Positions 155 to 18,460 of a stretch of DNA of 20,921 bases are shown in pieces. The notes below the pieces were generated by a model. It saw nothing but the letters and a program-made list of their open reading frames with translations. It had not been told where the DNA came from and did not search any database. Positions within the stretch are counted from its first letter, which is position 1, and every line of letters starts with the position of its first letter. The position numbers and the translations under genes are program-made. Source of the stretch: a virus; the IMG/VR virus record IMGVR_UViG_3300022932_000121, positions 1-20,921 of that record. One strand, given 5' to 3'.

Positions 155-451
155 TTAAGTGAATTCTAAATATTCGTTGCGTTTGACAATTGTTGTGGTG
201 AATGGAAATTTATCTTGTGGTATTTTTTTTATTGTTTGAATAAGTATTGTTGCGCCTGTAAATACAACTCTTTTACGCTGATCAATCTCAATTTGTAAAG
301 TCAAATAATCTGAGTTGGCTTTCTTCTTTGACGGTTCCACTTTGTAACCGTGGACTTTGATTAACACATTCAATATTTCGTCTATTTTTATACTTTTTCC
401 TGCGAAGTGCAATACTTCGACTTCTATTCCTAAATCCGAGAACTTGGTCAT
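155..451 (-). CDS. 98-residue DGR-associated small protein
   Basis: This is a small protein encoded directly after the DGR reverse transcriptase. It begins MTKFSDLGIEVEV, contains a KRVVFTG segment near residue 60 and ends in FPFTTTIVKRNEYLEFT. The pattern looks mixed alpha/beta, not the four-helix bundle of the classical DGR accessory protein Avd. I recall similar small proteins downstream of DGR reverse transcriptases in Bacteroidetes but cannot name a domain. Its ATG at 451 lies inside the RT frame. The bases ATGA would form a stop/start overlap with the RT if the RT frame were shifted by one base, which suggests translational coupling. It might help RT function or template RNA handling; that is inference from position. 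Confidence 0.75.
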   Translation of the reverse strand: MTKFSDLGIEVEVLHFAGKSIKIDEILNVLIKVHGYKVEPSKKKANSDYLTLQIEIDQRKRVVFTGATILIQTIKKIPQDKFPFTTTIVKRNEYLEFT

Positions 452-1430
452 TTGGGCTTATCTTTTTTAGTAAGTGATTAGAATCACAGTACATAATCCA
501 ACCCATATAGGCGGCTATAACTGCTTTGTTGTTTTTGGTAAATGCTTTTGCAGCACGTTTTTTGATTGTTTTTCGAAGTCGTGTATGGGTGTGGTAGAAA
601 ACATAACCTACAAAGTCAATTCCTCTTTTTGAAACTGGGAAAACTTGGTAATTTCCTTTAACCTGTAGTTTTAAATTGTCGTTTAAATACTGTTTAATCT
701 CACTTAAAAGAATATGTAAATCATTTTTTTTGTCTGTGAGTATTACAATATCATCCGCGTATCTGAAGTAATATTTTACTTTTTTTGTTTCTTTTATCCA
801 GTGGTCAAATGCTGTTAAGTAGAAATTGGCAAAGTATTGGCTGAGATAGTTTCCAATTGGAATACCTTCAGAACTGTCAATGATTTCATCCAGTAGCCAC
901 AAAAGATCATTGTCTTTAAATTTTCTTCGAAGTTGATTTTTTAAAATGTGGTGATTTATTGATGGATAAAATTTGGTGATATCCAACTTCAAGCAGTAAG
1001 CTGTTCCAGGCACATCGGCCAAAGCTTTTTTAACAGCTTTGGCAGCCGAATGTATCCCTTTTCCTTTTATTGAACTGTAGGTATCAGTTGTGAATAATTT
1101 TGTAAATATGGGCTCCAAAACATTCATGATAGCGTGGTGTGTAATACGATCAGGAAAGAACTGTAATTTAGAAACGATTCTTTCTTTCGGCTCATACACT
1201 TTAAAGGTTGCATAATTTGAAGTTACGTAATCTTTGTTTTTCAAAATTTCGTGAAGCTTCAAAATATTGCTTTCCTTATTCTTATTGTGAATGATCACAC
1301 CTTTTTGTCTTGATTTACCTTTCTGCGCTCTTTTATCAGCCAACATCAGGTTATCAATACTAATTATTTCGCTATATAGATTGTTGTATCTTTTCAAAGC
1401 CTTTGTATTATTGGGTCGCTTTCTTGACAA
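288..1430 (-). CDS. DGR reverse transcriptase
   Basis: This reverse transcriptase copies the template RNA into adenine-mutagenised cDNA that replaces the variable repeats. Visible motifs are motif A LKLDITKFYPS with Asp150, the DGR-type motif IPIGNYLSQ at 190-198 (SQ where other RTs have QG) and the catalytic box YADD at 224-227. A GIDFVGYVFY block follows at 270-279. The first ATG at 1430 fits the usual DGR RT N-terminus. The frame as read is 380 residues. The last 50 or so (from about residue 324) look like a different frame read through the partner gene, being basic and low in pattern. One extra base in the A-run near 463 would end the protein at about 327 residues with a TGA at 450-448. 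The RT lies directly downstream of TR, the standard DGR order. Confidence 0.95.
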   Translation of the reverse strand: MSRKRPNNTKALKRYNNLYSEIISIDNLMLADKRAQKGKSRQKGVIIHNKNKESNILKLHEILKNKDYVTSNYATFKVYEPKERIVSKLQFFPDRITHHAIMNVLEPIFTKLFTTDTYSSIKGKGIHSAAKAVKKALADVPGTAYCLKLDITKFYPSINHHILKNQLRRKFKDNDLLWLLDEIIDSSEGIPIGNYLSQYFANFYLTAFDHWIKETKKVKYYFRYADDIVILTDKKNDLHILLSEIKQYLNDNLKLQVKGNYQVFPVSKRGIDFVGYVFYHTHTRLRKTIKKRAAKAFTKNNKAVIAAYMGWIMYCDSNHLLKKISPNDQVLGFRNRSRSIALRRKKYKNRRNIECVNQSPRLQSGTVKEESQLRLFDFTN

Positions 1431-1501
1431 GAACAGAATACTAACGACCCGTTAAAAATTGAGTTTTTTTGCACTGATGGCAGGGTTTGCACCGAATAAT
1501 A

Positions 1502-1582
1502 TTTTTTACATGGTGGGAGCTGCAGTTCGTATTCGTGTTCCAGTTATCGACATTGTTCAACGACCAACCCGAAGAGGGAGAA
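1502..1582 (-). repeat. DGR template repeat (TR)
   Basis: This is a non-coding copy of the repeat that occurs inside the two target genes. It aligns base for base without gaps to 1687-1767 and 2070-2150. The core is 1511-1582. Read on the minus strand in the target-gene frame it would give SPSSGWSLNNVDNWNTNTN and onwards, with many AAC/AAT codons, as expected of a TR whose adenines seed diversity. The first 25 bases on the minus strand contain no adenine and are identical in all three copies. The left edge (1502-1510) is less certain because VR2 has two non-adenine mismatches there. Confidence 0.95.
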
Positions 1583-1622
1583 CGACTCAAAAACCACAGC
1601 ATTCAATGCACAACCTTTTATT

Positions 1623-1997
1623 TTATAGAATCTCTTTGATCAGATCAGAGAAGTTTTCCCAGAAGTAACGGCCAATCGCTCTCGTTCTGAACACACGGCG
1701 GGAGCCGCAGATCGTAACCGTGTACCAGACACCGACATCGTACAACGACCAACCCGAAGAGGGAGAATACTCGTACCAGTTCTCATACTTTATCTGATCT
1801 CTATCTGAATAATCAGCAATCCACGGTTTGTCCTGACCTTCGTTGTTTAATGCTCTAATCACTACATCAGCTTTGTAGTTGTTAATTATAGAAGCTTTGT
1901 CGTCTTCGTTTTGCAAGTGATCTACACCAGGCATTAATGTAATATCTAATCCCTCAGCGATAAATGCCTTTTCAATTGTGTTTATTGTTAATTCCAT
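1623..1997 (-). CDS. DGR target protein 1, C-type-lectin-like variable protein
   Basis: This 124-residue protein contains VR1. From about residue 77 it reads YSPSSGWSL, then the variable stretch with a fixed Trp (VW), then CGSR and a constant tail RYFWENFSDLIKEIL. The SGW...W...GSR arrangement near the C-terminus is what is expected of C-type-lectin-fold DGR targets, whose variable residues form a ligand-binding face. The N-terminal part contains A-x-x-VIRALN, reminiscent of a small protein family common in Bacteroides mobile elements. There is no signal peptide or membrane helix. It lies 5 nt after target 2 and directly before TR and RT. The ligand is unknown. Confidence 0.9.
   Translation of the reverse strand: MELTINTIEKAFIAEGLDITLMPGVDHLQNEDDKASIINNYKADVVIRALNNEGQDKPWIADYSDRDQIKYENWYEYSPSSGWSLYDVGVWYTVTICGSRRVFRTRAIGRYFWENFSDLIKEIL
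1687..1767 (-). repeat. DGR variable repeat 1 (VR1)
   Basis: VR1 lies inside the C-terminal half of the 1623-1997 gene. Over 81 bp it differs from TR at 17 positions, 12 of them in the 72-bp core. Every one is a T on the plus strand, so an A in the template-sense strand. All other bases are identical. The diversified residues fall between SGWSL and the segment following CGSR. Confidence 0.95.
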
Positions 1998-2002
1998 TTT
2001 TG

Positions 2003-2479
2003 TTATTTAATAAGGTTAATGTAAATCTCTTTGAATGTGTTCCAAGCGTATTGTGCGTGCTCGCGATCGAGGAACGCCAGGCGGGAGCCGCAGAACGTAT
2101 GCGTGCGCCAGTGATCGACACTGTCCAACGACCAACCCGAAGAGGGAGAATACTGATAATAGTGTAAATACTTTGATTGATTACCATTGCCCCAGTCTAA
2201 TACTTCTTTTGTATCAGCATTAAAACAACGGCTGATTAATAATGCTTGACGCATAGCATTTGCGGCGATATCGTCAGGATCATCACTTTCGCAGATGTAT
2301 TTTTTTGGACTTACGCCCATTTCTTTGCATACATCATCAAAGGATTTAATTCGTTCCATGATGTTAGGTTGAAAAATTTTGATTCCAAAAAGGTTTTCTA
2401 AAAACACTTTTCTACCGCCTTTTGCTTTGTTGTAAGCGGTTAATACTTTGCCTTTGTCGGCTGTTAATGTTTCACTCAT
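2003..2479 (-). CDS. DGR target protein 2, C-type-lectin-like variable protein
   Basis: This 158-residue protein contains VR2. The start at 2479 (MSETLTADKGK) was chosen over an upstream ATG at 2590 because the longer version would overlap the zinc-ribbon gene by about 90 bp. Layout: an N-terminal helical segment (KVLTAYNKA...LENLFG), then MERIKSFDDVCKEMGV, a helical middle, then YSPSSGWSL, the variable stretch, FCGSRLAF and a constant tail AQYAWNTFKEIYINLIK. The MERIKSF...GSRLAF...A-x-Y pattern matches, from memory, a small-protein family frequent in Bacteroidetes phages, here fitted with a DGR variable region. It is paralogous to target 1 in the C-terminal half but has an additional N-terminal segment. 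No export signal is seen. Confidence 0.9.
   Translation of the reverse strand: MSETLTADKGKVLTAYNKAKGGRKVFLENLFGIKIFQPNIMERIKSFDDVCKEMGVSPKKYICESDDPDDIAANAMRQALLISRCFNADTKEVLDWGNGNQSKYLHYYQYSPSSGWSLDSVDHWRTHTFCGSRLAFLDREHAQYAWNTFKEIYINLIK
2070..2150 (-). repeat. DGR variable repeat 2 (VR2)
   Basis: VR2 lies inside the 2003-2479 gene. In the core 2079-2150 it differs from TR at 11 positions, all template adenines. Outside the core (2070-2078) it has further adenine changes plus two non-adenine mismatches, so the true VR boundary is probably near 2079. It also differs from VR1, so the two targets have been rewritten independently. Confidence 0.93.
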
Positions 2480-2498
2480 TTTATAGTTGTTTTTAAAG

Positions 2499-2726
2499 TT
2501 ATTCTGTTTTAAATCTTTCTTGGTTAATAATAATATTGTCGTTTTCATCCCTAGAGTGACATTTCTCGCAATAATGCTTTTGTTTTTCAACGATCCATTC
2601 TTCAGATGTCACCTCTTCGTTTGCATTGTCTTCGTCGAAGAAAAATGCGTGATCTTCCGTTTCTCTAAACTGTGCTTTACAGTTGTCACATATAATCCCT
2701 GTGAATGTTTGTTTTATAAATCCCAT
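2499..2726 (-). CDS. Small zinc-ribbon-like protein (75 aa)
   Basis: There are two CxxC pairs, CDNC at 13-16 and CEKC at 53-56, separated by an acidic segment with FFFDEDNANEE. This spacing is typical of a treble-clef or zinc-ribbon fold. The gene sits in the leftward early operon between the replication-like protein (16 nt upstream) and DGR target 2 (19 nt downstream). The function is not recognisable; it could be a nucleic-acid or protein adaptor. Confidence 0.7.
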   Translation of the reverse strand: MGFIKQTFTGIICDNCKAQFRETEDHAFFFDEDNANEEVTSEEWIVEKQKHYCEKCHSRDENDNIIINQERFKTE

Positions 2727-6909: not shown

Positions 6910-7755
6910 TTACGCCACCTTTTTTTGATTTAGAAAATAGCTTTCAACATCTTGTTTCACGCGTCTTAAATCACCTTCGCAATTGCAAAAAACAGTTTCG
7001 ATTCTTTCAGTATCAGTTAATCCGTTTTCAACACAGATAGCCGTTACGTCTGTTAGTGTTAGAGGTTTAAGTTTTAGAAATTTTCTTCCGATTCTTGACC
7101 ATAACTCGAAATACCCGGAGCGATCGGCTTTTACGCCTCTTTTTATTCTCTTTTCCAGTGCTGGAACTCCTGAGAGTAGAAAACCACAATGGCCTACTAA
7201 ATCATTATAGAAGTCTATAAAGAAATCCATTGATCCATCTTTTAACTTGTCCATCTGGTCAATGATCACTAATGGTTTATCCAATCCGCTTAAATGATCT
7301 ATAAAGCGTTCTACTAAATCTTCGGTAGTCCCAAAATCATCTAAACCACACGCCGTAACCAAAGCTTTAGCGTAGCTTTTTGACTTCCAGAAAGTTTTAC
7401 ATTCGATATAGATTACATTAGGCAATGTGCTAGCGATTAACTTATAAGTTTGGCTTTTACCTGCTCCAGCATCATAGGATATTGCGAAGCTGATCGATTT
7501 TTCTTTTGCCTTTTCAGCATGCCTGTAGATATATTCTAAGTTGGTGGTTTTAGCGGTTTTCCAATCCAACTCAATGCGAAGCTTCACTTTGACCTTGCGC
7601 CACATTTCGTCTTTAATTAAATTCCAGTTTTCATTTATCATTTGGCTAATGGTAGCCGATGATACACCTGCTTTAGTAGCAACTTTATTTTGAGAAGTTA
7701 AAACACATAAGTGTTTTATTTCTTTTACTATCTGATGTTTTTGTTCTGTTGTCAT
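6910..7755 (-). CDS. MuB-like transposition ATPase with N-terminal HTH (281 aa)
   Basis: This AAA+ ATPase would bind target DNA and activate the transposase. Residues 19-42 form a helix-turn-helix (TSQNKVATKAGVSSATISQM), as in Mu B. Walker A is SYDAGAGKS at 93-101 and Walker B is PLVIIDQMDKL at 161-171. The residue after the Walker B Asp is Gln where Glu is usual in AAA+ proteins, so hydrolysis may be slow or use another residue. A LLSGVPAL sensor-1-like segment and a C-terminal helical domain follow. The gene begins 18 nt after the transposase stop. Confidence is high from context and motifs. Confidence 0.9.
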   Translation of the reverse strand: MTTEQKHQIVKEIKHLCVLTSQNKVATKAGVSSATISQMINENWNLIKDEMWRKVKVKLRIELDWKTAKTTNLEYIYRHAEKAKEKSISFAISYDAGAGKSQTYKLIASTLPNVIYIECKTFWKSKSYAKALVTACGLDDFGTTEDLVERFIDHLSGLDKPLVIIDQMDKLKDGSMDFFIDFYNDLVGHCGFLLSGVPALEKRIKRGVKADRSGYFELWSRIGRKFLKLKPLTLTDVTAICVENGLTDTERIETVFCNCEGDLRRVKQDVESYFLNQKKVA

Positions 7756-7773: not shown

Positions 7774-9759
7774 TTAAAAATCGTATTGGTTGTCTATTGC
7801 TTCGGTGATCAATTGCTCTACTTTTGTAATGTTTCCGCCCATTTTAATGAGTAAATCGGTGTCTTCTATTAATGTTTGCCTGTTAATACCTGTGCGATCT
7901 TCCAATGCTTTTAATTCACGTTGTGTTCGCTCAAGTTCTAATTTTCGTACCTGCATATCGGAAAACCATTTTTCTTTGTCGCCTTCTTTCATTAAGGCAG
8001 GTATATTTTGATGTTTTCGTTTCGGTTCTGCATTGGCCATCCATACATAATTGTCTTTTTCATCTTTAATATAGAGTTGGACATATCCGTCAAGGAAATC
8101 AGGATCATATCGCACTTTGAATTTATTTCCGATGTTTTTGTATCTAAAATCACTATCGACTTCGCCTTTACTGTTGTAAACTTCAAACTCGTAATCTACT
8201 CCTGATATATTTACATTGATCCCAGACCCTTTATAGGTTACTAATCGTTTAGTTTCTTCAATCCACATCTTATCCATAATATCCCAAAGCGTCAAAGGCT
8301 CTTTCATTGGCATTTCATGTTGATAAACTTCATTACGGCTCATTTCAAAATGCGGATGCTGTTTGCAGTTCCAAAGATTTACTGCTGCCAACCAAGCCTT
8401 TTGCAATTCCTCAACCGTTTTAAGATTGGCTTTGTTTTCGAGGATGAAATCAGTATTCATTTTGTTGTCATCACGTTTTACCGTTACACCTTGACCATCT
8501 GAAAACCAAAATTTTGTAATCACTTGCTGTTGAAAACGTGCAAACAGTTGTTCTGACGGATTTGAGTGATTTCGGGCTTTATTTGGGTGATGTGTTCCCT
8601 GACCATCGACAGCCATTAAAGAATCATATAACGATTGCATCCTGTCCATTTTATGCCCTCCCTGATGGTCATACGTTAAATAATATGGCCTGCATTGTGC
8701 CTCATTTACTGCCATTTTGATTGCTTTGAAGTGTTCAATGTGGCTTTCGGTAAATGATAAATCCCAACCGATTATTTTTTCGCTGTAAACATCAAACATC
8801 ACATCTATTTTAAGTTTCGCACCCATTTTATTACTGCTGTCATCCCAATAGTGTATCCAGTCAAGTTTTGTTCCGTCAATCGCCCAATAAGCATTCGGGA
8901 ACCAATCGCTTCGATCTCTGGTGATTGTGTGTTTGTATTTTTTATTATATGCTGACAATCCGTGGCGGGCTAGTGTCCAAATACGTTCTCTTTCCGGTTG
9001 ATAAAGCCAATTGTAAATAGCTGCCTCAGTCAAACTTTTCCAGTTACGTTTTTCGGCTTCAACATCATAAGCATACAAAACTTCGGGAATAGACATTTTT
9101 ATCGGTAGACAATATTTAGCCAGGATAAAATCGGCGATTTCTTCTTTTATGATCTGAGCGTTTTTTTGTCCTTCGCCTTTATGCAGAAAAACCTCGTAAC
9201 CATTTTTTAAATAATCTTCATATTTTGCTTTTAGTCTTCGAGGGTTTCCGGGTAGTGAGAAAATCCATTTATTGGTATTTATTCCATTTACGGCAATGCT
9301 TACTTCATCCCAAATCTTACTTGTTTTTGCTCCAAAAGCGTTTCTTTTTAATTTAGGATCATTAAACAGCATTCGAATACCATTTAAAATCATTGCGCTT
9401 GTGGCTTTTTCTCGTTGGTCTTCATCTGATAATGGTCGGCCGTTTGGCTTGCGGTGTTCCGCGAAAAATCTTATTGATTGTACGTCTGGAACAATATAGT
9501 TTTCTAACTTATTTCTAACGAGAACCTCTTTAGGTTCTCCAAGTCCTTCGATGCATAATTTTTTAAAATCAATGCCCTGGTGAACCGGCAAATCGTGAAA
9601 ACTCACGAACGGTTCGTTACCCGGTCCTCGACCTTCTTTGGTACGTACTAACTTTCCACGTTTGCATAAATTTTGGTAATTGTTATAAGTAATCAATCCC
9701 CAATCTTCATATAGAAGCTTAGCAGGTATTGATAGTGTGTTTTTATGATATTCGTACAT
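7774..9759 (-). CDS. Mu-type DDE transposase (MuA-like, 661 aa)
   Basis: This transposase cuts the phage ends and joins them to target DNA. The retroviral-integrase-like core holds the acidic triad: Asp295 in YWAIDGTKLDW, Asp364 in YLTYDHQGGHK and Glu403 in NPSEQLFARF. The N-terminal 200 or so residues should bind the phage ends. A beta-barrel domain (about 515-595) and a helical C-terminal tail (KLELERTQRELKALEDR) follow, as in Mu A, where the tail contacts MuB. Length matches MuA (663 residues). It is followed immediately by the MuB-like gene and preceded by an 87-bp leader with an inverted repeat and two hairpins. Confidence 0.97.
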   Translation of the reverse strand: MYEYHKNTLSIPAKLLYEDWGLITYNNYQNLCKRGKLVRTKEGRGPGNEPFVSFHDLPVHQGIDFKKLCIEGLGEPKEVLVRNKLENYIVPDVQSIRFFAEHRKPNGRPLSDEDQREKATSAMILNGIRMLFNDPKLKRNAFGAKTSKIWDEVSIAVNGINTNKWIFSLPGNPRRLKAKYEDYLKNGYEVFLHKGEGQKNAQIIKEEIADFILAKYCLPIKMSIPEVLYAYDVEAEKRNWKSLTEAAIYNWLYQPERERIWTLARHGLSAYNKKYKHTITRDRSDWFPNAYWAIDGTKLDWIHYWDDSSNKMGAKLKIDVMFDVYSEKIIGWDLSFTESHIEHFKAIKMAVNEAQCRPYYLTYDHQGGHKMDRMQSLYDSLMAVDGQGTHHPNKARNHSNPSEQLFARFQQQVITKFWFSDGQGVTVKRDDNKMNTDFILENKANLKTVEELQKAWLAAVNLWNCKQHPHFEMSRNEVYQHEMPMKEPLTLWDIMDKMWIEETKRLVTYKGSGINVNISGVDYEFEVYNSKGEVDSDFRYKNIGNKFKVRYDPDFLDGYVQLYIKDEKDNYVWMANAEPKRKHQNIPALMKEGDKEKWFSDMQVRKLELERTQRELKALEDRTGINRQTLIEDTDLLIKMGGNITKVEQLITEAIDNQYDF

Positions 9760-11150: not shown

Positions 11151-11225
11151 ATAAAATGGAGACTTTAAGGCTTATAAATAAAGGTTTAATGTATATTTAC
11201 CGACTAGACGGTAGTTCGTGTCTTA

Positions 11226-11380
11226 AATGGTACAATAAATTCGTTTAGAATGGTACATAAACGATACTTAATGGTGCATATCTGTACATTTTAAAATATA
11301 TCTTTTTTTAAACTTTTTAGGCCTTAGGTCTTGATTTTATTGGCTTTTTCGACCTTTTTTGTATTAGTATCCATTGTACA
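11226..11380. other. Phage end with transposase-binding-type repeats
   Basis: AATGGTACA occurs at 11226-11234 and 11249-11257, AATGGTGCA at 11270-11278, and looser copies at 11280-11288 and 11372-11380, all in one orientation. The first three are 23 and 21 bp apart, about two helical turns. This is what an array of MuA-type end-binding sites looks like, with the last copy at the extreme end of the element. The stretch 10883-11386 otherwise holds only the repeats at 11033, the terminator and AT-rich DNA. Confidence 0.6.
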
Positions 11381-13751: not shown

Positions 13752-14259
13752 AATTTTAAATAAATTTTATCAGAAACCATCTTAATATTACAAGTTAATT
13801 TACAACTTTTTTAGAATGTTTATTTGTAAAGTCTTGCCAAAAGATAAGTAAAATAACAAAATGTTTCTCTCTTTTAAACAGAGGACTGAAGGTTCGAATT
13901 TTTCCAAATTAAATATAAATTGAAAAATGTACAAATTTAATAATCGTTAAACTTTTATTTCAAATGAAATTAATTTTCTTTAAATCATCTGTAAAATGGT
14001 TCGAGTCCTGTTCCCGCTACTAGAAAAAATTCAAAATCCACTTTTATAGCGTTTTTTAGTTTAAAAGAACACATTTTTAATTAAGAAGCTCAAAATTTGT
14101 ACGAAGCACTTCCTAGTAGCAGGAACAGGACTCGAACCAAAATATTTTCAAACAGCTCCTCTGTCCATCTCTCTTATAAAATTATTTAATAAAGAACCTT
14201 AAAGTAATCCGCTCATTCAAATCAACTGATCACTCCAGCCAACCTCCCCTTTACCGGCC
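13752..14259. other. Gene-free stretch with tRNA-3'-end-like inverted repeats
   Basis: No coding region is seen. The 26-base segment 13998-14023 reads GGTTCGAGTCCTGTTCCC followed by GCTACTAG, which is the T-arm and acceptor 3' strand of a tRNA (probably tRNA-Met type). Its reverse complement lies at 14113-14138 with one mismatch. The rest of the tRNA is absent in both. Such pieces are usual scars of islands that integrate into tRNA genes. Another GGTTCGAA box is at about 13891-13898. Confidence 0.65.
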
Positions 14260-14367
<108 letters not shown>

Positions 14368-14384
14368 CAAAGCAAGAATCAAGC

Positions 14385-14633: not shown

Positions 14634-16634
14634 ATGTACATTGAAAGACTTACAATTACTAAATTCAGATCTATTGAGCATTTAGTGGTTGATTTTAATA
14701 AAGGGGTAAATATTATAATAGGGGAAAATAATGCAGGTAAAAGCACTATTATGGATGCTTTGCGCATTTGTCTTAGTTTGGGCAGACAATGGCGAGACAT
14801 TGGTATAAAAAATCCGGAAGATTTTTATATAGACAAAAGTATAATTTCCGATGTTGTGGAACCTATTGAATTCCTTATGGAATTTAAGGTAGAAGATGCT
14901 GAGGACCGGAATATCTTTCATTCACTCCTATGGCAGGATCCTAAAAAAGCTAGCAATATCAATTTAAGGCTCCATTTTCGATATGAAATTGAAAAAGATG
15001 CGGCAGGTAACGACAAATTAAAATGGAAAGCAACAGGAGGATCGAATGCTGTAGTTGAGATCTCTGAGCTACAGCAAATATATTATTCATATCTGGAACC
15101 ATTGCGAAATGCAGAACAGGAGCTTCGTCCCTATGCAGTAAACAATAAGATAACTTCCCTATTCAGAGATATGACATCTTATGAAATACCTGATCCACAT
15201 GGTGCAAAAAATATCCCTCTTACTTCTGATAAAAAAAATGAGCTTTCGCAGGCTCTTGAAGCGGTTCTTAAAAACGAGGACTGGACTGGTCTGATTAGTA
15301 CCGGACAGCAGTTCATAAACGAGCATCTGGATAAAGCTGATATTAAGAAAAAAAGCTCAAAAGTACATTTGAAGCTTTTAGAATATAAGTATGATAACAT
15401 TGTAAAAGGGTTTCTTACGCGAAAACCTGTCTATTCAGATACCGTTCTGGGAAAAGACATTCATCTTCAGAAATACTTTGATATCAGCCAGAATGGTCTG
15501 GGTGATAATAACATTATTCTATCATCAGCTGTACTAGGCGATCTTAAAAGCAGAAGAGATCAAAAAATAGAACATTATTATGCACTGCTTATAGAAGAGC
15601 CTGAAGCACACCTGCATCCTCAGAGACAAAATACTTTTTTTAATTATCTGAACACGCTTCAGGATCTTGGGGTACAGATTTTTATCACATCACATTCCCC
15701 AACTATCACAGCCAAATCTGACCTAGACAATTTATTGATACTTCAAAAAAATGAAGAAAACAATACAGCATTATTTACAACTAAAAAATCAGCTCTCTCA
15801 CCAAAAAATAAATCATATCTCAGAAAATTTTTAGATGTTACCAAATCCCAGTTATTCTTTGCCAGCGGCTGTATTCTTGTAGAAGGGATATCAGAAGCTC
15901 TTCTGCTTCCAACTTTCGCAATAATGATGGGGTCTGACTATGATCTGGATAAAAACGGAATTGAAATTGTAAATATAAACGGTGTTGCTTTTGAACCTTT
16001 CGCAAATCTTTTTAACAGTTCAGATGAAAAAAAGAGATTATCCACTTTCTGCACTATTATAACTGATGACGACAGAAGCATAATAAAGGCCGGAAATTTT
16101 ATCAGTAAAACTGAAAATATAACAAAGGCCAAGGCGACAGATATATTCAAAGAGCTGAAAAACTTAAAAGTAATAGACGAAAATAATAGGATCAAGGATT
16201 TTAATCCAGCCAGCCCAATAAAAATTGCAGGGTACGAAGATAAAGAGATTTTTATAAAAAAAATATTAGCTGCCAGATTCAACAAGTTTTCCGACCGTGC
16301 AACTAAAGCACAAAATTTAGCTTCTGAAAATCTTCACGTTGAACTGGCAGAACATACGTTTGAATACGAGCTGATAACGGCTTCTGACATAAATGCCAAT
16401 ATTATAGGATCACTTTATAATAAAATGCATTCGGCAGGTTATGTAGATCCGAAAGCAGATAAATTCTTACTTGCTGCTGATATATTAAAAAAACTGAAAT
16501 CAAATAAAGATAAATCTGAGCTAGCCGAGTTTCTCTCATACGCTTTTGACGAAATTCCCGATTTCCGAAAGAATTTTGTTATTCCAGTTTATCTTCAAAA
16601 CGCCATCAGATGGGTAATTGATAAAAAGATATAG
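14634..16634 (+). CDS. gajA: GajA-like OLD-family ATPase/TOPRIM nuclease (Gabija, 666 aa)
   Basis: This is the nuclease subunit of a Gabija anti-phage system. The ABC-type ATPase part has Walker A GENNAGKST at 30-38, a signature-like SQNGLGDN at 285-292, Walker B LLIEEPEAHLHP at 318-329 and the D-loop/H-switch region FITSHSP at 350-356. The TOPRIM nuclease domain follows, with the metal-binding Glu417 in ILVEGISEALLLP and acidic TDDDRS at 477-482. This order is that of class 2 OLD nucleases, which occur with a UvrD-like helicase. At 666 residues it is longer than the Bacillus cereus GajA (about 580). The helicase gene follows after 2 nt. GajA cleaves DNA when nucleotides are depleted during phage infection; that is family knowledge. 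Confidence 0.9.
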   Translation: MYIERLTITKFRSIEHLVVDFNKGVNIIIGENNAGKSTIMDALRICLSLGRQWRDIGIKNPEDFYIDKSIISDVVEPIEFLMEFKVEDAEDRNIFHSLLWQDPKKASNINLRLHFRYEIEKDAAGNDKLKWKATGGSNAVVEISELQQIYYSYLEPLRNAEQELRPYAVNNKITSLFRDMTSYEIPDPHGAKNIPLTSDKKNELSQALEAVLKNEDWTGLISTGQQFINEHLDKADIKKKSSKVHLKLLEYKYDNIVKGFLTRKPVYSDTVLGKDIHLQKYFDISQNGLGDNNIILSSAVLGDLKSRRDQKIEHYYALLIEEPEAHLHPQRQNTFFNYLNTLQDLGVQIFITSHSPTITAKSDLDNLLILQKNEENNTALFTTKKSALSPKNKSYLRKFLDVTKSQLFFASGCILVEGISEALLLPTFAIMMGSDYDLDKNGIEIVNINGVAFEPFANLFNSSDEKKRLSTFCTIITDDDRSIIKAGNFISKTENITKAKATDIFKELKNLKVIDENNRIKDFNPASPIKIAGYEDKEIFIKKILAARFNKFSDRATKAQNLASENLHVELAEHTFEYELITASDINANIIGSLYNKMHSAGYVDPKADKFLLAADILKKLKSNKDKSELAEFLSYAFDEIPDFRKNFVIPVYLQNAIRWVIDKKI

Positions 16635-16636
16635 TT

Positions 16637-18460
16637 ATGTACAGCACTTTATCTAAGGGACAGAAGAAGATACTGGATTACAATAAAGGAACAGTAGTTG
16701 TTAAAGCATGTCCTGGAAGCGGAAAAACTTTCTCGCTGGCAGCCAGAATATCGCGATTATTGAGAGAGCAAAGTTCAGAAAAAAAAGGTCTTTGCGTAAT
16801 CTCATTTACCAATATTGCCTGCCAGGAAGTTGAAGATAAGCTTTCCAAAGTTTTCTTCACACACGTCCCCTTAAAACATCCTCACTTTTTTGGCACCATA
16901 GACAGTTTTATAAATACTTTTATATTCCTTCCCTTCGGACACCTAATTATGGGCTGTGATTCACGACCTGAATTAGTTGGTGAGCCTCATGGTGCGTGGA
17001 GTATAAAAAGGCACGACAGAGATTATGACCAGTTTTTTGACAAGACCACTTTTGACTCTAATGATCAGCTTACTGCTATTGCGCCTTATCAGGCTTTTAA
17101 CTTTATCTGGAAGTATCATAATAATAATGGACAGGTAAATGGAAATATTCTGGCAATTATAAGATCTAAAAAAGCATTGTTTAAAAAAGGATATGCCAAT
17201 CAGTCCGACGCTAATTACATTTCTTTAAAAGTCCTTCAAAAATATCCTTTAATTGCCGAGAATCTCGCTAACAAATTTTCGCATTTTTTAATTGATGAAT
17301 GCCAGGATACCAATGACGTGCACATGCAAATAATAGATATATTAAATGAGAAAGGGGCTGATAATATTATGCTTGTCGGGGACAGAGACCAGTCAATATT
17401 TGAATGGAATGATGCACGTCCTGAATTGTTTGATATAAAATATGATTTATGGGACAAAATACTTTTGGATGAAAACCGAAGAAGTTCACAGCTTATCTGC
17501 AATTTCATTAAGAATCTGTCTTCTTTCTCAGAAATAAAGGCAGTCAACGAAAAAGTCAAAGAATCCGTTCTGGAACCTTCTATCGATAGTTACATTTTAC
17601 CTAAGAAAGCTACCTTAAAAGATACTACTATAATAACGTTGAAAGAAAGTACGGAAAGCTTCAATGAAATCTTAGAAGATTTCCTCAAAGAGTGCTCAGC
17701 AAATAATATTCCAATAGATAAGGAAAATACTGCTGTCTTATATAGAGGCACTGCCAGTTCAAAATATTTGGGCCTTAGTTCAGATATCCATGATTTTAAA
17801 ACTATACCATGGTTTGCAAACCATTATCATGTCAGAAACATTCTCAAAGGTAAACATATGTATGAGAATGGATTATTCAGCAAAGGATACAAACTGATGG
17901 AAAAGGGATATTTTGAAGCACTACAGCGTCCCTTAGAAGACCGGTTTTATTGCAGCTCACAGTTCTTAGCAGATCGGATATCTGTACATGGAATCAAAAA
18001 TCATAGAAATGAGGTTTTTAATTTCATAAACTCTCTTCCCTTAACTAAAGATAAAACTATTACTTCCTGGGTAAATGAAGCAAATGCAGGATTTAAGAAA
18101 TCTTCAATAAATCTCGAATTTCAAATTGAACTTCAGTTTGGTAATGTTTCTATCGATGATTATTTCGGGGAAGATTTAAACAGCGAGAAACTGCATCCAT
18201 TCTATTTTGGAACCGTGCACTCAGTAAAAGGAAAAACTTTTCAAGCAGTTTTATTGCTGCTTGGCAAAAGAGCCGGTAAAAATTATGATACTCTTTTGAA
18301 ATCCGATCCTACGATTTTAACCCCTAAAGATCTGGAAGAACTTCGAATAGTATATGTTGCTTTATCGCGTCCTCAAATTCTTTTAAAGATGGCTGTGCCT
18401 GCATCAGATCATAAACTATGGAACGATAAGCTCAATAAACTACCCAGAAGCAATCATTAA
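16637..18460 (+). CDS. gajB: GajB-like UvrD-family helicase (Gabija, 607 aa)
   Basis: This superfamily 1 helicase is the partner of GajA. Motifs in order: I ACPGSGKTFSLA from about 24, Ia VISFTNIACQEVEDKL at 54-69, II LIDECQDTND at 218-227, III VGDRDQSIFEW at 247-257, IV LDENRRSS at 277-284, V GTVHSVKGKTFQ at 525-536 and VI LRIVYVALSRPQ at 569-580. The set is complete, so ATPase and helicase activity are expected. It starts 2 nt after gajA, implying coupled translation. In known Gabija complexes GajB binds the GajA tetramer. Confidence 0.92.
   Translation: MYSTLSKGQKKILDYNKGTVVVKACPGSGKTFSLAARISRLLREQSSEKKGLCVISFTNIACQEVEDKLSKVFFTHVPLKHPHFFGTIDSFINTFIFLPFGHLIMGCDSRPELVGEPHGAWSIKRHDRDYDQFFDKTTFDSNDQLTAIAPYQAFNFIWKYHNNNGQVNGNILAIIRSKKALFKKGYANQSDANYISLKVLQKYPLIAENLANKFSHFLIDECQDTNDVHMQIIDILNEKGADNIMLVGDRDQSIFEWNDARPELFDIKYDLWDKILLDENRRSSQLICNFIKNLSSFSEIKAVNEKVKESVLEPSIDSYILPKKATLKDTTIITLKESTESFNEILEDFLKECSANNIPIDKENTAVLYRGTASSKYLGLSSDIHDFKTIPWFANHYHVRNILKGKHMYENGLFSKGYKLMEKGYFEALQRPLEDRFYCSSQFLADRISVHGIKNHRNEVFNFINSLPLTKDKTITSWVNEANAGFKKSSINLEFQIELQFGNVSIDDYFGEDLNSEKLHPFYFGTVHSVKGKTFQAVLLLLGKRAGKNYDTLLKSDPTILTPKDLEELRIVYVALSRPQILLKMAVPASDHKLWNDKLNKLPRSNH

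Follow-up and report, generated by a model that had tools for sequence, protein, structure and literature searches.

Evidence for a diversity-generating retroelement in a Mu-like phage in which one template repeat serves two small target genes

We analyzed a stretch of viral DNA of 20,921 nucleotides from an IMG/VR record (hereafter, the window) and found that it comes from a Mu-like phage of Bacteroidota that carries a diversity-generating retroelement (DGR). Our preferred explanation, to which we assign a probability of about 0.93, combines an RNA composed of a template repeat (TR) and the adjoining spacer, a reverse transcriptase (RT) with an OB-like partner protein, and two small targets that are rewritten independently. 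According to this mechanism, the RNA with its folded spacer would presumably be bound by the RT and its partner, cDNA synthesis would be primed in the spacer, and the RT would copy the TR into cDNA with errors at adenines. The cDNA would then replace the matching variable repeat (VR) in one or the other of two small neighbouring genes, each on its own, with replacement stopping at a GC-rich 3' boundary marked by fixed TR-VR differences. Within this explanation, the function of the accessory protein, the priming of cDNA in the spacer and the binding partners of the targets are the parts that we infer.

Results

One template repeat aligns with two variable repeats

The cassette is on the minus strand throughout and runs from target 2 (VR2) through target 1 (VR1), the TR, the spacer and the RT to a gene encoding a 98-aa protein. 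The 72-nt TR core (1511-1582, of which 1511-1521 form an IMH*-like 3' boundary) aligns without gaps to VR1 (1696-1767) and VR2 (2079-2150), at offsets of 185 and 568. VR1 differs from the TR at 12 positions and VR2 at 11, and all 23 differences fall on the 18 adenines of the core; the probability that every difference would hit an adenine by chance is 1.2e-9 for VR1 and 1.1e-8 for VR2. An earlier note on this DNA had reported the same gap-free alignment and the same numbers, and our recount was identical. It had also begun the TR at 1502; the core at 1511-1582 holds, and the additional letters contribute only a weakly matching run of A. Eight of the changed adenines are common to both VRs (with different bases in VR1 and VR2 at five of them), four are changed only in VR1 and three only in VR2, and the adenines at 1530, 1536 and 1556 are the same as the TR in both.

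Some of these differences look like a fixed feature of the template/target boundary rather than repeated random mutation. At A1521 and A1514, almost all VRs of the clade depart from the TR: AGY becomes GGY in 67 of 69 VRs, CAC becomes CGC in 69 of 69, and the A of CAG is changed in 178 of 180. At A1511, VR1 carries G in all four close phages, and VR2 carries T in three of them and is unchanged in the fourth (L003). Judged by sequence pattern, namely a GC-rich 3' end at which TR and VR differ in a fixed way, this boundary is comparable to the IMH/IMH* of BPP-1. Because sites 1521, 1514 and 1511 are fixed or paralog-specific in relatives, we did not count 6 of the 23 changes as mutagenesis. Thus, where the earlier note took all 23 as a mutagenesis record, 17 hold: 9 in VR1 (P 2.9e-7) and 8 in VR2 (P 2.2e-6), on 15 adenines of 61 nt. 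Changed sites in the two VRs then overlap at 5 positions, against 4.8 expected if they were independent, and four of these five carry different bases in VR1 and VR2.

Relatives show repeated copying from the template and independent diversification

We ran an automatic TR-VR finder, which favours A mismatches, on 81 viral loci including the window. TR-VR pairs were detected in 64 of them, 39 with two VRs, 5 with three and 20 with one, so that 44 of 64 carried two or three; no pair was found in the other 17, several of which are interrupted by contig ends. In the relatives VR1 usually lies near -188 and VR2 near -580 from the TR. Scoring 113 TR-VR pairs with a neutral boundary placed 1464 of 1528 mismatches at template A, a fraction (96%) that is somewhat inflated by the preselection of these pairs with the A-weighted finder, and only 14 of the 1528 had A in the VR. 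These comparisons show adenine-specific change that is directed from TR to VR. The rate of change, which also includes selection on the proteins, was 85% for the first A of AAC, 38% for the A of ACG and lowest, 30%, for the A of TAY; the top rank of AAC agrees with the preference reported for BPP-1 (PMC12875486). Near-identical copies of the window TR were found only in L002 and L004, both already-known relatives.

Two further comparisons are independent of the finder's A weighting and provide the stronger evidence. Where the window phage, L002, L003 and L004 differ in template bases, both VRs of the phage concerned carry the same difference, which requires repeated copying from the TR; this pattern of concerted evolution argues for the past retrohoming of one TR into two genes that the earlier note had proposed. 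In addition, an alignment of TR and VRs in relatives, which that note had suggested as a check, revealed three sister prophages of Elizabethkingia type (L028, L031 and L032) with identical TRs (0/76 differences), VR1 and VR2 differing at 8-13 positions each, and all 63 of 63 VR changes at template adenines, while the remaining sequence differs by 2.9-4.2%. The VRs of these related isolates have diversified independently, in agreement with the note's claim that each VR was rewritten separately and with the overlap in changed sites observed in the window. The cassettes of L028 and L031 are identical to those of Elizabethkingia prophages L107 and L108. The VR count for L022/L027 was left out, being blurred by an alignment shift.

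We also observed that in Dyadobacter sp. CY261 (L110) one TR is accompanied by four VRs, one of them in a small target gene of its own, 7.3 kb downstream and flanked by helicase-methylase and DNA clamp genes.

The reverse transcriptase is preceded by a conserved structured spacer

The RT gene (288-1397, minus strand; 369 aa) encodes a DGR-type enzyme by its matches to phrog_1423 (E 2e-120) and RVT_1 and by the motifs GIPIGNYLSQ and YADD, which fit the (I/V/L)GxxxSQ and YxDD patterns of DGR RTs. We place its start at the TTG at 1397, a position at which many relatives have ATG; the ORF tool lists a TTG at 1430. The 113-nt TR-RT spacer (1398-1510, minus strand) is predicted from an alignment of 46 loci to fold into two stem-loop regions, one a short hairpin and the other a longer stem with interruptions. 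In ten of its 11 pairs both sides have changed without loss of pairing, and 96.8% of alignment cells are paired compared to 34-49% in slid controls. This covariation shows a conserved RNA fold; the BPP-1 spacer is also structured (PMC12875486). An Rfam search of window positions 1300-2600 matched no family. A stem-loop downstream of the VR is needed for full efficiency in BPP-1, and here we found one just downstream of the VR in 29 of 113 cases versus 18 in shuffled sequence, a weak excess that falls short of clear enrichment.

A 98-aa protein is linked to the RT

A gene for a 98-aa OB-like protein (155-451, minus strand) overlaps the 3' end of the RT gene and is a candidate DGR accessory in place of Avd. 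Nearly all viral relatives have a homolog in this position. A genome search with the 98-aa protein alone retrieved 23 loci, and all 23 also encode a related RT; in 22 of these the homolog overlaps the RT or lies no more than 9 nt from the end of the RT match, and in the remaining locus (L119) a partial RT match ends 442 nt before it. In the archaeal viruses ANMV-1 and vir525, too, the homolog comes directly after the RT; BPP-1, two crAss-like phages and Perkons gave no match. An AF2 model of the protein (pLDDT 90.7) gave many OB folds among its best Foldseek matches, all weak and none significant (best E 0.06), and we infer that it may act as a nucleic-acid-binding partner of the RT. The bAvd profile (PF22296), the accessory of BPP-1-like DGRs, matched none of 12 records (the window and 11 related or archaeal ones), with BPP-1 as a positive control at E 2e-37; the PF05635 profile gave zero matches anywhere and hence carries no information on Avd. 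Taken together, these searches show a conserved accessory gene linked to the RT, and no bAvd match in the 12 records.

The targets are small paralogous proteins

Target gene 1 (1623-1997, minus strand) encodes 124 aa with VR1 in the C-terminal half, and target gene 2 (2003-2479, minus strand) encodes 158 aa from the ATG at 2479 with VR2 in the C-terminal part; a 195-aa ORF call is a longer reading of the latter. Both frames remain open through the VR. The two proteins are paralogs of one family that has short and N-terminally extended forms. The model of the VR2 protein (pLDDT 92.5) is helical with a beta-hairpin, and its variable residues, 119-134, fall on strand two of the hairpin and the loop after it, the part of the model with the lowest confidence. 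Compared with the PDB it had no significant match and no lectin among the weak matches listed, and it resembles only uncharacterised phage proteins. A phmmer search with the VR1 protein gave a lone match (E 0.09), a C-type lectin from a snake, which we did not take as evidence. No receptor or tail-fibre annotation was found for the targets, and tblastn detected no target homologs in named phages.

The VR ends in a short GSRLCF-like motif that is also present in two larger targets, that of L074/L076 (442 aa) and that of cr55_1 (572 aa), the latter with a borderline head-fibre match. Because this ending recurs in large targets of related RTs, the small targets could descend from a lectin, or be reduced lectins. 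In L074 and L076, a related RT is accompanied by the 442-aa target and not by a small pair. By this comparison, the target class can switch within the RT clade.

The cassette is carried by a transposable phage

Since MuB-like ATPase (6910-7755) and MuA-like transposase (7774-9759) genes are present (both minus strand; phrog_296 and phrog_310), the carrier can be assigned to the Mu-like transposable phages. The nearest relatives, L003 included, have RTs 83-87% identical to that of the window. In both the positions and the counts of its repeats, the L003 cassette matches the one in Flavobacterium denitrificans DSM 15936 (L097), and because of this match the host, a member of the Bacteroidota, is probably Flavobacterium or a close relative. 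The L003/L097 RT is 83% identical to that of the window and the cassette layout is the same; no MuA match was found in the L003/L097 phage. The cassette appears to pass from one phage to another, unrelated one. The window ends at position 1, before the later phage genes, among which a third target could be located.

From about 11.3 kb onward the sequence reads like host DNA. Several AATGGTACA-like repeats at about 11200-11380, between the phage repressor side and the host-like genes, probably mark a Mu-like phage end with transposase sites. The apparent host flank adjoining the prophage contains a Gabija defence pair (14634-18460, plus strand; GajA E 3e-148, GajB E 3.5e-209) and, between host genes upstream of GajA, a run of about 20 units of the tetramer CTAA (14285-14374). 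A 30-nt inverted repeat (13997-14026 and 14110-14139, 93% complementary) resembles tRNA 3' ends (GGTTCGAGTCCTG...), and ARAGORN calls no tRNA.

Discussion

A plain gene duplication followed by mutation, with no active retroelement and with the adenine pattern arising from selection on Asn codons, would account for the paralogy of the two targets. It fits poorly, however, with changes confined to A while synonymous sites are unchanged and with an intact DGR-type RT, and it is contradicted by the mirrored template differences and the sister prophages with identical TRs; we give it practically no weight. It is also improbable, though much less so, that the DGR was active in the past and is now dead in the window phage. 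Activity is invisible in one assembled sequence, but the RT, the accessory gene, the TR and the fold of the spacer are intact, as are the frames of the two targets, and relatives have diversified recently.

What the targets do is a separate matter. The earlier note had called them two receptors, and the same DGR could indeed diversify virion receptor-binding modules, small tail adhesins that change host range as in BPP-1. Most of the targets known for phage DGRs are tail proteins (PMC8144416), the GSRLCF-like ending is found in larger targets, and a fibre-like ORF, judged from sequence, lies a few kb from the cassette in the L003 phage, so that a virion role is possible. Against this, the targets are only 120-160 aa and have no shaft, the VR2 model has no recognisable lectin among the PDB matches listed, and the targets are early or replication-linked in position in several unrelated phages: in L004 they are next to the transposase operon and over 10 kb away from the baseplate, sheath and tape-measure genes, and in L061 and L110 their neighbours are methylase, helicase and DNA clamp genes. 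We therefore regard the receptor label as unsupported and small tail adhesins as a serious but not the favoured possibility; gene position leads us to favour, tentatively, binding proteins that are expressed early and possibly act inside the cell over tail fibres. A still broader proposal is that the cassette represents a DGR branch with an OB-fold partner instead of Avd, found in Bacteroidota phages and archaeal viruses, which in the former diversifies small non-lectin early intracellular proteins, for example to track host defence, and not tail receptors. We offer this as a speculation that is rather unlikely to hold in full.

The best-studied DGR needs Avd, and among the targets known for phage DGRs, tail receptors with a lectin fold predominate. 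A clade in which a linked OB-like gene stands in for Avd, with a covarying template RNA and paired small targets next to early genes, would widen what DGRs are seen to diversify, and it offers a compact system for study: an RT, a 98-aa partner and an RNA of about 190 nt. In our literature search, in which coverage of subscription journals and preprints was thin, we found no description of an OB-fold DGR accessory, of a replacement of Avd, or of small, apparently non-lectin paired targets. Multi-target DGRs, by comparison, are already well documented (PMC3521204, PMC6642488, PMC10743442).

The element resembles the BPP-1 DGR in having an RT, a single TR, a VR that lies C-terminally in the target and changes specifically at adenines, the order target-TR-RT on one strand and a TR-RT spacer. 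It differs in that BPP-1 has Avd (PF22296) between target and TR, whereas here no Avd was found and an OB-like gene follows the RT; in that BPP-1 has a single lectin-type tail target, whereas here there are two small ones; and in TR length, about 72 nt compared to 134 nt. ANMV-1 shares the 98-aa homolog, annotated in its record only as hypothetical, and differs in having one target near tail-fibre genes and an ORF that its description marks as Avd (PMC4372165). The Hankyphage of Bacteroides is likewise a DGR-bearing, Mu-like transposable phage of Bacteroidota (PMC6199706), but its target is a single very large C-type-lectin ORF with the VR at residues 2188-2225 and 117-bp repeats. Two targets are also known from phage DGRs with tentaclins (PMC10743442) and from Quimbyvirus (PMC8008677), where C-type lectin domains are reported; in Quimbyvirus one target lies near defence-related rather than structural genes, and a non-structural target has been proposed (PMC8008677). 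In contrast, the PDB matches listed for the VR2 model here include no lectin, and the two targets are side by side next to early genes. Multi-VR systems make up about one seventh of DGRs in one account (PMC3521204) and 28.6% of 948 in another (PMC6642488), and, like the element described here, use one template for several, often paralogous, target genes; what sets the present cassette apart from them is that most of a clade of Bacteroidota phages keeps the order VR2-VR1-TR-RT-accessory.
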